The translations under genes and the position numbers were made by a program. 64,000 nucleotides of DNA from Neoroseomonas alkaliterrae (GTDB lineage: Bacteria > Pseudomonadota > Alphaproteobacteria > Acetobacterales > Acetobacteraceae): contig NZ_JACIJE010000001.1 in the NCBI RefSeq assembly GCF_014199195.1, positions 62,001 to 126,000 on the forward strand, in the 5' to 3' direction. Under the pieces are notes generated by a model. The model was not told the DNA's origin and did not search any database. It was given only the letters and a program-made list of their open reading frames with translations. Positions 40,207-44,257 of this stretch are shown here, piece after piece; position 1 is the stretch's first letter; every line of letters begins with the position of its first letter.

Positions 40207-40221
40207 TTCGATCATATAGAA
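40207..40221. promoter_or_regulatory. LysR-type box in the lysR-dabB intergenic region
   Basis: TTCGATCATATAGAA is a dyad TTC-N9-GAA that contains the T-N11-A core expected for a LysR regulator. It starts 3 bp upstream of the lysR start codon, so binding would also repress lysR itself. It lies 18 bp upstream of a perfect -10 hexamer for dabB, overlapping the -35 position. Confidence 0.5.
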
Positions 40222-40238
40222 CGTTTACTCGCAAAACA

Positions 40239-40244
40239 TATAAT
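40239..40244 (+). promoter_or_regulatory. Putative -10 element of the dabBA promoter
   Basis: TATAAT, a perfect sigma-70 -10 hexamer, sits in an AT-rich island 58 bp before dabB, in a genome where such words are rare. No good -35 is found at 17 bp, as is usual for activator-dependent promoters; the LysR box covers that place. Confidence 0.45.
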
Positions 40245-40302
40245 TTTCTCGAAGTGTTTCAACGGCTACCTCCGGCGCCGTCCAGCCTCGACGGAGCCGG
40301 AG

Positions 40303-41865
40303 ATGACCAGCCTGCCGCCCCTGTCCCTTGCCGCGCCGCTCGTGCTCCTCGCCGCCGCGGCCTTCGCCCTGGCCCGCCCCGGCCGTCGCCCGGGCGGGCT
40401 GCCGCGGCTCGCGGAGGCGGCGGCGCTGGCCGCCCTCGCCCTCGCCGGGGCGGGGGTCGTCCAGCTGATCGCCGCCGGCGGCGGAACCTTCGGCATCGGC
40501 CGCGGCGCGGGGCTGCTCGCCATCCGGCTCGACGCCGTCTCGGCGACGATGGCGCTGCTCGTCGCCTTCGTCGGCTGGGTGGTGGTGCGCTACGCCCGCA
40601 GCTACCTCGACGGCGATGCGCGGGAAGGGGCGTTCCACGGCCTGCTGCTCGCCACCCTCGGCGCGGTGCTGCTGCTCGTGCAGGCGGGCAGCCTCGCGGT
40701 GCTGGTGCTCGCCTTCCTCGCGGTGGGGGCGGGGCTGCGGCTGCTCCTGCTGCACTACCGCGAGAGGCCGGAGGCGCGGCGGGCGGCGGCGAAGTTCGCG
40801 CTGGTGTGGGGCGCGGGCGATGCGGCGCTGGTCGTCGCCGCCGGCCTGCTCTGGGCGGCCTTCGGCACGGCGGACCTCGCGCGCATCTCGGCCGCCGCGG
40901 CGGGCGGGCTGCCGCCGGCCGCACAGCTGGCGGTCGGCTTCCTCGTCCTCGCCGCGCTGCTCAAGACGGCGGCCTTCCCCCTGCACGGCTGGCTCACCGA
41001 GGTGATGGAGGCGCCCACGCCCGTCTCCGCCCTGCTCCATGCGGGCATCATCAATGGCGGCGGCTTCCTGATGATCCGGCTGGCCGATCTCGTGCAGGCG
41101 AGCACGGGCGCGATGGCCGCCCTCGTCATGCTCGGCGGCCTCACCGCGCTGTTCGGCGCGGCGGTGATGCTGACGCAGAGCGCGGTCAAGACGTCGCTCG
41201 CCTGGTCCACCGTCAGCCAGATGGGCTTCATGCTGCTGCAATGCGGGCTCGGGCTCTGGACGCTCGCGCTCCTGCACATCGTCGCCCATTCGCTCTACAA
41301 GGCGCATGCCTTCCTCGGCTCGGGCACGGCGGTGGCGGCGGTGAACGCCATCCGCAAGCCGGGGCCGGTGGCCATTCCCGGGCGCGGGGCGGTGGTGCGC
41401 TCCTTCGCGCTGGCGCTGCTGCTCTATGCCGCGGTCGCCGCAGGCTTCGCCGTGGCGGTCGGCGGCAAGTCGGCCCAGGCGCTCGCGCTCGGCGCCATCC
41501 TGATCTTCGGCGTCGCCTATCTCGTCGCGCAGGGCATGGCGGATGCCGCGCCGCGGGATCTCTCGCGTCGCACCTTCGCCGCCTCGGCCGGCGTCGCCGT
41601 CGCCTATTTCGGCTTCCATGTCCTGGCCGAGGCGCTGTGGGGCGCCGGCCTGCCCGCCCCGCCCGCCCCCGGCGCGCTGGAATGGGCGCTGATCGTGCTC
41701 GCGCTCGGCTCCTTCGGGCTGGTCGCGCTGGCGCAGGCGCTGTTCCCGCACTGGGCGCACCACCCGGCCTCGGCGGGGCTGCGCGTGCACCTCGCCAACG
41801 GCTTCTACCTCAACGCGCTGCTCGACCGGGTGATCGGCGGGCTGCGGACCGCGAAACCCCTCTGA
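40303..41865 (+). CDS. dabB: DabB, NuoL-like proton-channel subunit of an inorganic-carbon transporter
   Basis: A 520-aa membrane protein with about 13-14 helices of the NADH-quinone oxidoreductase chain 5/Mrp antiporter family. Segments [38 protein letters not shown] and [25 protein letters not shown] [19 protein letters not shown] carry the conserved charged and His residues of the proton path. There are no other nuo genes here. Coupling to dabA 25 bp downstream identifies it as DabB, which uses the cation gradient to drive DabA. ATG at 40303 follows GGAGCCGGAG. The known DAB systems serve CO2 concentration in autotrophs and carbonic-anhydrase-poor heterotrophs. Confidence 0.93.
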
Positions 41866-41890
41866 CACGCCCAGACGCGCGGAGACGCCC

Positions 41891-44257
41891 ATGCTCGCCA
41901 AGGCCCTCGACATCGCCCCCGCCCGCGTCGCCGGGCTGCTCGCCGCCGCCGAGGCCGCGGCGCGGGCGATCCCGCCCGCCTTCCCGCTCGACGCGACGGT
42001 GGCGGTGAACCCCTTCCTCGGCCAGACCGGGGAGGACCTCGCCACCTGTGCCGCGCGCCTCGCCCGCGTGGCCGGGATGCGGGTGACCCGCCGGCGCGCC
42101 GACTACGCCGCGGACCTCGCCGCCGGCAGGATCGCGCGGGAGGACCTCGCCGCGGCGCTCGCCGCCTCTGCCTCGCCGCTGAAGCCGCGCGACCTTGCCG
42201 CGCTGGAGGCCCGGCTCGCGGAGGAGGGCCCGGCGCCGCGGGCGCTGCCCACCGTGGCCGACCTCGCGGCGACGGCGGACGGGACGGACTGGCCGGCGGT
42301 GATCGCGCGGAGCTTCGGCCTCTGGGCCGCCGGGCATTTCGACCGCGGCCAGGCGCTGTGGTCGCCCGCCCCGGGCAGGACCGCCTTCGCCGCCTGGCGG
42401 GAATGGGCCACCCACGACCTGACGCCCGAGGTCGCCGGCCTCGCGGGCTTCTGCGCGCATGTCGCCGCCGCCCCCGACACGCCCGAGCGCGCCATCCTGC
42501 GCGCGGCCGACCGGCTCGGCATCGGGGAAGCGGCCGCGCCCACCGCCTTCCACCGGCTGCTGACCGAGCTCGGCGGCTGGGCGCAGCATGCCCGCTGGCT
42601 GCTGTGGCAGGCCGAGCTCGAGGGCGGCACCGACGGCACGCTGACCGACCTGCTCGCCATCCGGCTGGTGTGGGAGGAGGCGCTGCTCGCCCACGCGCCC
42701 GCGGTCGCGGCGGACTGGGCGGCGACCCTCGCCGCCCATGCCGCGCCCGTCGCGCCGACGGCGGACCAGGTGCTGGACGCCATCCTGCAGGAGGCCTCCG
42801 AGCGCGCCTACCAGCGGCGCCTCGCCGCCGCCCTGGCGGGTGCCGCGCCGCGGTCGGGCCGGCCGGCGCTGCAGGCGGTGTTCTGCATCGATGTCCGCTC
42901 CGAGGTCTTCCGCCGGGCCCTCGAACGCCTCGATCCGGGGATCGAGACCAAGGGCTTCGCGGGCTTCTTCGGGCTGGCGGTGTCGCATCGCCCGCATGGC
43001 ACCGACGCGGCGCAGGCGCATCTGCCGGTGCTGCTGACGCCGGCCCTCGCCTCGACGAGCCATGCCGCGCCGGCGGAGGAACATGCCCGGCGGATCGCGG
43101 CGCGCACCACCCGCGCCTGGGGGCGGTTCCGGCAGGCGGCGGTCTCCTCCTTCGCCTTCGTCGAGGCGGCGGGCCTCGCCTATGCGGGCAAGCTGGTGAA
43201 GGACGCGCTGGGCCTCTCGCTCCGCTGCGAGGCCGAGCCCGCGCCGCGCTTCGAGCCCGGGCTGACGGCGGCGCAGAAGGCCGCCGCGGCGGCGGCCGTG
43301 CTGAAGGCGATGAGCATGACGGCAGGCCATGCGCCGCTCGTGCTGCTGCTCGGCCACGGCGCCCGCGTCGCCAACAACCCGCACGAGAGCGCCTATCACT
43401 GCGGCGCCTGCGGCGGGCAGACCGGCGCGGTCTCGGCGCGGCTGCTCGCACGGCTGCTGAACGACCCCGAGACGCGCGCGGGCCTTCCCGCCCACGGCAT
43501 CGCCCTGCCCGAGGACACCGTGTTCGTCGCCGGCCTGCACGAGACCACGACCGACAGCGTGACGCTGTTCGACGCCCCGCAGGGCGCGGCGGGTCTCGAT
43601 CGGGCGCGGGCCTGGCTCGCGCAGGCGGGGGCGATGGCGCGGGCCGAGCGGGCGCTGCGCCTGCCGGGGGCCACGCCCGCCACGGTGGCCGGCCGCGCGC
43701 GGAACTGGGCCGAGATCCGGCCCGAATGGGGGCTCGCCGGCTGCGCCGCCTTCATCGCCGCCCCGCGCGGCGCCACCGCCGGGGCCGATCTCGGCGGCCG
43801 CGCCTTCCTGCACGACTACGACTGGCGGGCGGATGAGGGCTTCGCCACGCTGGAGCTGGTCCTGACCGCGCCGGTGGTGGTGGCGAGCTGGATCAGCCTG
43901 CAATACTACGGCTCGACGGTCGCGCCCGAGGCCTTCGGCGGCGGCAACAAGCTGATCCACAACGTCACCGGCGGCATCGGCGTGGTGGAGGGCAATGGCG
44001 GCATGCTGCGTGCCGGCCTGCCCTGGCAGGCGGTGCATGACGGCGAGCGCCTCGCGCATGAGCCGCACCGGCTCTCGGTGCTGGTCGAGGCGCCGCCGGC
44101 GGCCATCGCCGATATCCTCGCCCGCCATCCCGGCGTGCGCGCGCTGTTCGACAATGGCTGGCTGCATCTGCTCGTGCTCGAACAGGGCCGCATCGCCCAC
44201 CGCTACCGCCCGGGCCTCGCCTGGGAGGCGGCGGAGGAGTTCGCGCGCGCGGCGTGA
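41891..44257 (+). CDS. dabA: DabA (DUF2309), zinc-dependent CO2 hydration subunit of an inorganic-carbon transporter
   Basis: A 788-aa protein of the DUF2309/UPF0753 family. The beta-carbonic-anhydrase-like zinc site is complete: Cys332 and Asp334 in FCIDVRSE, His489 in [13 protein letters not shown], and Cys504 in YHCGACGG. The 15-residue His-Cys spacing equals that of Halothiobacillus DabA (H524/C539). The family ETTTD and [22 protein letters not shown] motifs are present. In the DAB model, DabA hydrates CO2 to bicarbonate in the cytoplasm in one direction, powered through DabB. It follows dabB after 25 bp. About 350 bp without a gene follow. Confidence 0.95.

Follow-up and report, generated by a model that had tools for sequence, protein, structure and literature searches.

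A divergent LysR-dabBA locus and its probable role in bicarbonate supply in a RuBisCO-free host with photosynthetic reaction-centre genes

The closest solved counterpart of the locus described here is DAB2 of Halothiobacillus neapolitanus (PMC13144422; PDB 9rd0), likewise a two-gene system with the same domains. According to PMC13144422, the zinc ligands of DAB2 are Cys351, His524 and Cys539, and Asp353 forms a dyad with Arg355 at the water bound to zinc. The same source reports that E444A and E444Q each abolish DAB2 activity in vivo, and that changing Arg182 of DabB2 lowers its output. The homologous MpsAB of Staphylococcus is described in PMC8552792 as interchangeable with carbonic anhydrase, and that study maintains that the transporter and carbonic anhydrase are seldom found together and that possessing both brings no added benefit. 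The divergent-LysR layout has itself already been published: the COGNAT study (PMC5700660) presents 'clade A' ybcC-nuoL operons in which, as here, a nuoL homologue is followed by a DUF2309 gene, with a reversed LysR gene on the 5' side. The function of the DUF2309 protein could not be predicted in that account.

In the window, by which we mean the whole 64,000-nucleotide stretch of DNA analysed, intact dabB and dabA genes occupy 40303-44257 and adjoin a divergent LysR gene (Table 1). The preliminary description had presented a complete DabB-DabA operon with a divergent LysR gene and no nuo genes near DabB. The genes are indeed intact, with Pfam domains throughout (the PF10070 profile is matched in DabA over positions 2-747 of 747), and a Pfam scan of the four neighbouring proteins revealed no nuo gene. 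The lysR reading frame opens with TTG at 40234; however, the codon of residue 11 is ATG in 59 of 73 related regions, which makes the ATG at 40204 the probable start of translation. The divergent arrangement is a regular one, being found in 73 of the 75 related loci that have more than 1 kb before dabB. A larger conserved operon was considered and rejected: only two merged protein clusters are widespread, their window members all fall within 39066-44599, and beyond these no cluster is common to more than 14 of 81 loci. The members of the cluster that reaches 14 loci are scattered in position. Nor does an Rfam element mark the dab locus, the sole match in the window being a tRNA at 6037-6109.

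Table 1. Features of the lysR-dabBA locus (window coordinates)
Feature	Position	Strand	Remarks
LysR-type regulator gene, divergent	39332..40204	-	~290 aa; reading frame extends back to 40234; Pfam HTH_1 and LysR_substrate
Predicted LysR operator (G)TTC-N9-GAAC, centre near -65	40206..40222	+	conserved in related regions
Second conserved block, consensus AAAATATGTA[A/T]TTTTCT	40233..40249	+	information up to 1.8 bits per position
Candidate lysR promoter TTGAAA-16-TATGTT	40235..40262	-	pattern scan: 1 against a mean of 0.0 in shuffles
Predicted dab -10, TACCTC, conserved TA	40267..40272	+	65 of 70 regions carry TA at this offset (61)
dabB, NuoL-like membrane subunit	40303..41865	+	520 aa; Proton_antipo_M PF00361, 131 bits
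dabA, beta-carbonic-anhydrase-like subunit	41891..44257	+	788 aa; Pfam DabA PF10070, 818 bits
Codons 332-336: zinc ligand Cys332, dyad Asp334-Arg336	42884..42898	+	equivalent to C351, D353, R355; invariant in 110/110
Glu425, membrane-inserted finger (Glu444 in DabA2)	43163..43165	+	invariant in 110/110 rows
Codons of the zinc ligands His489 (first in the stretch) and Cys504 (last)	43355..43402	+	equivalent to H524, C539; invariant in 110/110
Terminator-like stem 3' of dabA	44288..44302	+	pattern scan: 1 against a mean of 0.7 in shuffles; weak

Comparison with the solved DAB2 complex indicates that the pair is very likely a working two-subunit DAB/DAC complex. DabA matches DabA2 (9rd0_A, 541 bits) and keeps all 11 residues checked; ten of these never vary across 110 DabA rows, the window's own included, and the remaining one is retained in 109. 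It had been proposed that DabA retains four zinc ligands, with the His-Cys spacing of 15 residues known from the Halothiobacillus protein. All four residues stand at the positions given, the spacing agrees exactly with that of H524 and C539 in DabA2, and Cys332, His489 and Cys504 correspond to ligands; Asp334 belongs instead to the Asp-Arg dyad, and its assignment as a ligand is contradicted by the solved structure. The best solved match of DabB is DabB2 (9rd0_B, 236 bits), with nine of 11 checked residues kept. Its proton-path residues S242, H246, K296, S302, H325, H329 and K333 are all retained and are invariant in 103 of 103 relatives. At the regulatory positions of DabB2, the Lys235/Asp185 pair is kept as K221 and D173, and position 139 is Leu, with no Glu. 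Counting against a working complex, the counterpart of Arg182 is Gly170; this column varies among relatives, however, 48 of the 103 having Gly or His.

The region between lysR and dabB carries what appears to be a conserved operator. A TTC-N9-GAA dyad at 40207-40221 recurs in 63 of 73 related regions (the window included; L094 and L098, whose gaps fall outside 40-220 bases, were left out), and at least seven of the eight positions of GTTC-N9-GAAC are matched in 62 of the 73, compared with 3.2% of shuffles. In the entire window the same pattern has two matches, against 1.79 expected on average by chance. In an offset matrix of 70 rows, which includes the window and omits L058, L065 and L082, TT stands at offset 38-39 in 67 regions, and TA at any offset from 50 to 69 other than 61 is seen in at most four. 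The TA lies 61 bases from the dyad, which places the dyad near -65, the usual binding place of LysR proteins. The dyad noticed previously is real and conserved; its predicted centre is near -65, and the footprint contradicts the suggestion that it overlaps the -35. The perfect TATAAT reported alongside it is indeed present at 40239-40244; as a dab -10 it is rejected, since only three of the 73 regions (the window among them) have it. The -10 is more likely the element at 40267-40272. The second block in Table 1, within which this TATAAT falls, likely serves for activation; it covers the dab -35 (TTTTCT, 40244-40249) and also overlaps the candidate lysR promoter. Finally, pairwise identities of LysR and DabA are correlated (r=0.85, 73 sequences), as shared descent alone could also produce.

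The gene content of the host supplies the context. That no RuBisCO gene was visible near the locus extends to the whole genome, listed as 100% complete, in which PF00016 has zero matches. The host does possess pufLM and pufC (two Photo_RC proteins and a CytoC_RC protein on one contig, G000:C5), adjoined by a nitrogenase-type oxidoreductase; these reaction-centre genes are new relative to the preliminary description. Judged by genes alone, type II reaction-centre genes without RuBisCO would place the host among the aerobic anoxygenic phototrophs. A beta-carbonic anhydrase with CxDSR and HxxC motifs is also encoded. Searches of the genome for two enzymes that commonly use bicarbonate in anaplerosis, PEP carboxylase and pyruvate carboxylase (as a domain), found neither. 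This result weakens the earlier suggestion that the system feeds anaplerotic carboxylation.

In 200 genomes of the family (counted without G018, which has a weak Photo_RC match, and without RuBisCO-like matches above E 1e-100; DabA-positive genomes include partial genes, e.g., G055 and G191), reaction-centre genes occur in 24 of 41 genomes with DabA and in 43 of 159 without it. The association holds also in genomes without RuBisCO; in those with RuBisCO it vanishes (13 of 19 with DabA, 13 of 18 without), and 17 of the 41 DabA genomes lack reaction-centre genes. Among close DabA relatives, for which genome content was counted at 50 of 80 loci, reaction-centre genes are present in 33 genomes and lacking in 17. 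The DabA tree, which excludes L032 and L001 (the window itself), points to horizontal spread of the gene, and reaction-centre genes show no significant difference between the window's clade (34 of 51 labelled rows) and the rows outside it (17 of 29; p=0.48).

Taken as a whole, these observations are probably best explained by a LysR-switched DAB complex that supplies bicarbonate in a photoheterotroph. The sequence itself shows the genes, which residues are kept, that the operator is conserved and what the genome encodes; the chemistry and energy source of the complex are drawn by analogy from DAB2. On that analogy, DabB would form a NuoL-like proton path, and CO2 would be hydrated to bicarbonate at the zinc site of DabA solely while protons pass through DabB under the drive of the membrane potential. 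The product of the divergent LysR gene is predicted to bind both GTTC-N9-GAAC, near -65, and, near -35, the ATGTAATTTT block, and thereby to activate dabBA, with scarcity of inorganic carbon the probable signal. We infer this signal, as well as the purpose of the complex and its link to light. Reaction-centre genes without detected RuBisCO suggest that growth on organic carbon, and not carbon fixation, is what the pump supports. As the host combines photosynthesis genes and its own beta-carbonic anhydrase with the lack of RuBisCO, the complex is probably an inducible source of bicarbonate, working in one direction, for biosynthetic carboxylations; respiration and perhaps light would power it. 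Counting against this explanation are the DabA genomes that lack reaction-centre genes, the link of DabA with RuBisCO in the family and the loss of the reaction-centre link where RuBisCO is present, the two anaplerotic enzymes that were looked for and not found, and the rare coexistence with carbonic anhydrase claimed for Staphylococcus. R. denitrificans, moreover, is reported to fix CO2 mainly by malic enzyme, and to do so without stimulation by light. A broader version, in which the LysR-dabBA cassette spreads horizontally among photoheterotrophs as an accessory and couples light-driven proton-motive force to one-way CO2 hydration, so that RuBisCO-free phototrophs obtain bicarbonate from light energy, with LysR avoiding a futile cycle between DAB and carbonic anhydrase, is speculative and would seem rather unlikely.

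Other roles deserve weighing against that of a bicarbonate supply. Within the family DabA accompanies RuBisCO (19 of 41 DabA genomes, 18 of 159 others), and six other genomes carry both on one contig (G023, G041, G043, G081, G146, G153), as would suit a pump that feeds carbon to the Calvin cycle of an autotroph. Against this stand the lack of a RuBisCO large subunit in the host genome, listed as 100% complete, and the rarity of true RuBisCO (matches at E below 1e-100) among close relatives, where it is found in nine of 50 genomes; in the window's DabA clade RuBisCO is recorded for nine of 51 labelled rows, compared with 15 of 29 other labelled rows. For this host the role is rejected, being refuted barring a RuBisCO gene hidden in a gap of the assembly, and its probability is close to nil. 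Substitution for the host's carbonic anhydrase, as had also been proposed, gains some plausibility from the reported rescue of carbonic-anhydrase-deficient E. coli by DAB2 (PMC13144422) and by MpsAB (PMC6689103). Furthermore, no Pfam beta-carbonic anhydrase is found in six of the family's 41 DabA genomes; one of them, G045, is a single contig of 98% completeness that has no RuBisCO match either. Nevertheless, the enzyme is present in the other 35 and in 47 of the 50 relatives' genomes, and its absence shows no significant link to DabA (6/41 against 16/159, p=0.41; 200 family genomes). With the motif-bearing enzyme encoded in the host itself, replacement is unsupported there and was rejected; we regard it as highly improbable.

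A third reading makes the pair a sodium-bicarbonate symporter, as was proposed for MpsAB (PMC13144422). The same paper describes a sodium-transporter mutant that is reportedly rescued by MpsAB and not by DAB2, and it gives DAB2 as fully active without sodium. In the window DabA the zinc site, the Asp-Arg dyad and Glu425 are all kept, which argues for hydration chemistry over symport; sequence alone does not settle the ion, and we consider the symporter unlikely.

How RuBisCO-free phototrophs take up inorganic carbon, and whether light helps them, is an old question, for which a membrane-energy-driven CO2 hydratase in the genome of such an organism would offer a concrete genetic handle; the promoter footprint pinpoints bases for tests of regulation. 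The window DAB is in itself an ordinary system. Relative to the COGNAT clade A operons, the present analysis adds the operator, the host gene content and the signs of horizontal spread. Like MpsAB, which belongs to the same family, the complex resides in a non-autotroph (PMC8552792, PMC6689103); unlike MpsAB, which is said to be rarely found with carbonic anhydrase and for which sodium coupling was proposed, it usually coexists with this enzyme in the genomes counted here. Should DAB and carbonic anhydrase work in one cell, the view, formed on Staphylococcus and other Firmicutes, that it is 'one or the other' would fail for these Alphaproteobacteria. With DAB2 the complex shares the zinc ligands, the Asp-Arg dyad, Leu658, Glu444 and the seven proton-path residues of DabB. 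It departs from DAB2 in two DabB residues (Arg182 to Gly170 and Ile151 to Leu139) and in its host, which is RuBisCO-free and carries reaction-centre genes as well as a beta-carbonic anhydrase.

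The window covers bases 62001-126000 of contig 1 in the 4.24 Mb genome of Neoroseomonas alkaliterrae (listed completeness 100%), which contains one PF10070 match, the DabA encoded in the window. The four scanned neighbour proteins are a glutamine-amidotransferase-like peptidase, an RlmL-type methyltransferase, an MFS transporter and an ArsR-type regulator; no nuo product is among them, in line with the preliminary description of DabB as standing apart from nuo genes. A protein cluster common to 14 loci (L038:1630-2463 and 13 others), at scattered positions, is absent around the window's locus.

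Coordinates of the dab cassette and of the tRNA gene in the window
Feature	Position	Strand	Remark
LysR gene	39332 to about 40204		divergent from dabB-dabA
DabB	40303-41865	+	precedes DabA
DabA	41891-44257	+	25 bases from DabB
tRNA gene	6037-6109	-	only Rfam hit of the whole window to reach the gathering score

When aligned to the solved DabA2-DabB2 complex of Halothiobacillus neapolitanus (DAB2), DabA scored 541 bits and DabB 236 bits, and the residues named in the DAB2 paper (PMC13144422) were mapped from these alignments. Their equivalents are C332, D334, R336, S337, A357, E425, H489, C504, H550, D555 and L615 in DabA, ten of which are invariant in a 110-row alignment including the window (A357 is kept in 109), and D173, K221, S242, H246, K296, S302, H325, H329 and K333 in DabB, for which 103 rows were compared: seven of them never vary, K221 is kept in 100 rows and D173 in 99. 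Two positions differ, DAB2 Ile151 being Leu139 and Arg182 being Gly170 in the window DabB; the position-170 column is variable, with 46 Arg, 27 Gly and 21 His among the 103 rows. Of the four zinc ligands originally assigned to DabA, the two Cys and the His stand, whereas in DAB2 the Asp, with an Arg, stabilises the zinc-bound water (PMC13144422). The window operon is intact and belongs to a known system.

Searching named genomes at the protein level gave at least 572 stretches encoding a relative, of which the best 80 loci were kept. In 75 of these, over 1 kb of sequence precedes dabB, and 73 of the 75 have a divergent LysR gene. LysR-dabB intergenic regions were cut from 75 sequences, window included, and those whose gap measured 40-220 bases, 73 in all, were retained. 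The TTC-N9-GAA dyad noticed earlier in the window recurs in 63 of these regions versus 2.6% of shuffled sequences, although the shuffles are single-base and the regions related, so that this comparison is no formal probability. Of 70 regions anchored on the dyad, 67 have TT at offset 38-39 and 65 have TA at offset 61; no other single offset between 50 and 69 has TA in more than four regions. Since the conserved TT and TA can be read as -35 and -10 elements with a 17-base spacer, the transcript is predicted to start near 40279. Counted from this start, the dyad would fall at about -65 and the ATGTAATTTT block at about -35, i.e., the classical LysR layout; this layout and the distance from -10 to start are general knowledge. 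The TATAAT previously taken as the dab -10 is a variant of the ATGTAATTTT block common to 3 of the 73 regions, and was rejected. On the opposite strand, a candidate lysR promoter overlaps this block, and part of the block's conservation may therefore be due to lysR. At two loci of relatives (L071 and L092), the operator pattern before dabB is kept although the neighbouring LysR gene was not detected; there the regulator may have been lost, or it may be acting from another site.

As to the role of the operon, no RuBisCO large subunit was found in the host genome, as the window had suggested. The proposal that the operon replaces carbonic anhydrase (CA) is rejected for this host because the genome carries one beta-CA with both the CxDSR and HxxC motifs. 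The proposed anaplerotic supply is weakened, since the two bicarbonate-using enzymes looked for in the host genome, PEP carboxylase and pyruvate carboxylase (by its domain), were not found. Contig 5 of this RuBisCO-free genome (G000:C5:26001-46000, L115) carries the reaction-centre genes pufL, pufM and pufC together with a nitrogenase-type oxidoreductase that, by its place, is probably a Bch reductase.

DabA was present in 41 of 200 genomes of the host's family, where RuBisCO was counted at E below 1e-100. Uncorrected for descent, reaction-centre genes were associated with DabA (24/41 versus 43/159 without it, p=0.0003), also by genus (19/28 versus 21/74, p=0.0005) and among RuBisCO-free genomes (11/22 versus 30/141, p=0.007). 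This link is absent among RuBisCO-bearing family genomes (13/19 versus 13/18, p=1), and RuBisCO itself was associated with DabA (19/41 versus 18/159, p=2e-6, likewise uncorrected). Absence of beta-CA was not significantly linked to DabA in the family (6/41 versus 16/159, p=0.41, again uncorrected). For the first 50 of the best 80 loci, 33 of the genomes had reaction-centre genes, in a sample that by its record titles leans to Rhodobacterales and Erythrobacteraceae, both rich in such phototrophs. Beta-CA occurred in 47 of these 50, RuBisCO at the same threshold in nine (any RuBisCO-like match in 17), and reaction-centre genes without RuBisCO at that threshold in 29. From this association, it is possible that the operon is light-powered. 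One family genome (G045, a single contig) has DabA and reaction-centre genes with neither beta-CA nor a RuBisCO match, and is a natural case for the CA replacement question. In G160, a genome of the host genus that is listed as 99% complete and has reaction-centre genes, neither DabA nor a Pfam beta-CA was found.

In a 110-row DabA tree (quick method, SH-aLRT support only), the window DabA groups with two genomes, one of Rubellimicrobium and one of Phreatobacter (support 99), within a 56-row clade (100) that by record titles spans several families. The DabA of G104, also of the host genus, is 64% identical and falls outside this clade; G160 yielded none. Furthermore, 123 plasmid records contain relatives; in 111 of these the identity is below 60%, and 110 are predicted to be non-mobilizable. 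The mixed-family clade, the divergent or absent DabA of genus-mates and the plasmid-borne relatives together suggest horizontal spread of the cassette.

The promoter is corrected and the host context is testable. Among the titles and abstract openings listed in searches of open-licence papers, none joins DAB with aerobic anoxygenic phototrophs. A Roseobacter paper (PMC2749216) bears on the light idea in both directions: CO2 fixation in Acidiphilium rubrum is reported to be 3 to 5 times higher in light, which favours it, whereas Roseobacter denitrificans showed no light effect and fixed CO2 mainly by malic enzyme, which argues against it. A. rubrum ATCC 35905 carries the cassette (L086). The DabA stretch of one family genome (G096) is identical to that of A. 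rubrum (L012 and L086), so the host's family is probably that of Acidiphilium. The divergent-LysR layout (PMC5700660), the occurrence of the DAB family in non-autotrophs (PMC13144422; PMC8552792) and inorganic-carbon toolkit genes in heterotrophs (PMC10880623) are already in print. According to PMC8552792, the transporter and CA are seldom found together and a combination of the two makes little sense, though species with both are also named there; in contrast, the DabA-bearing genomes of the present counts usually have beta-CA as well.
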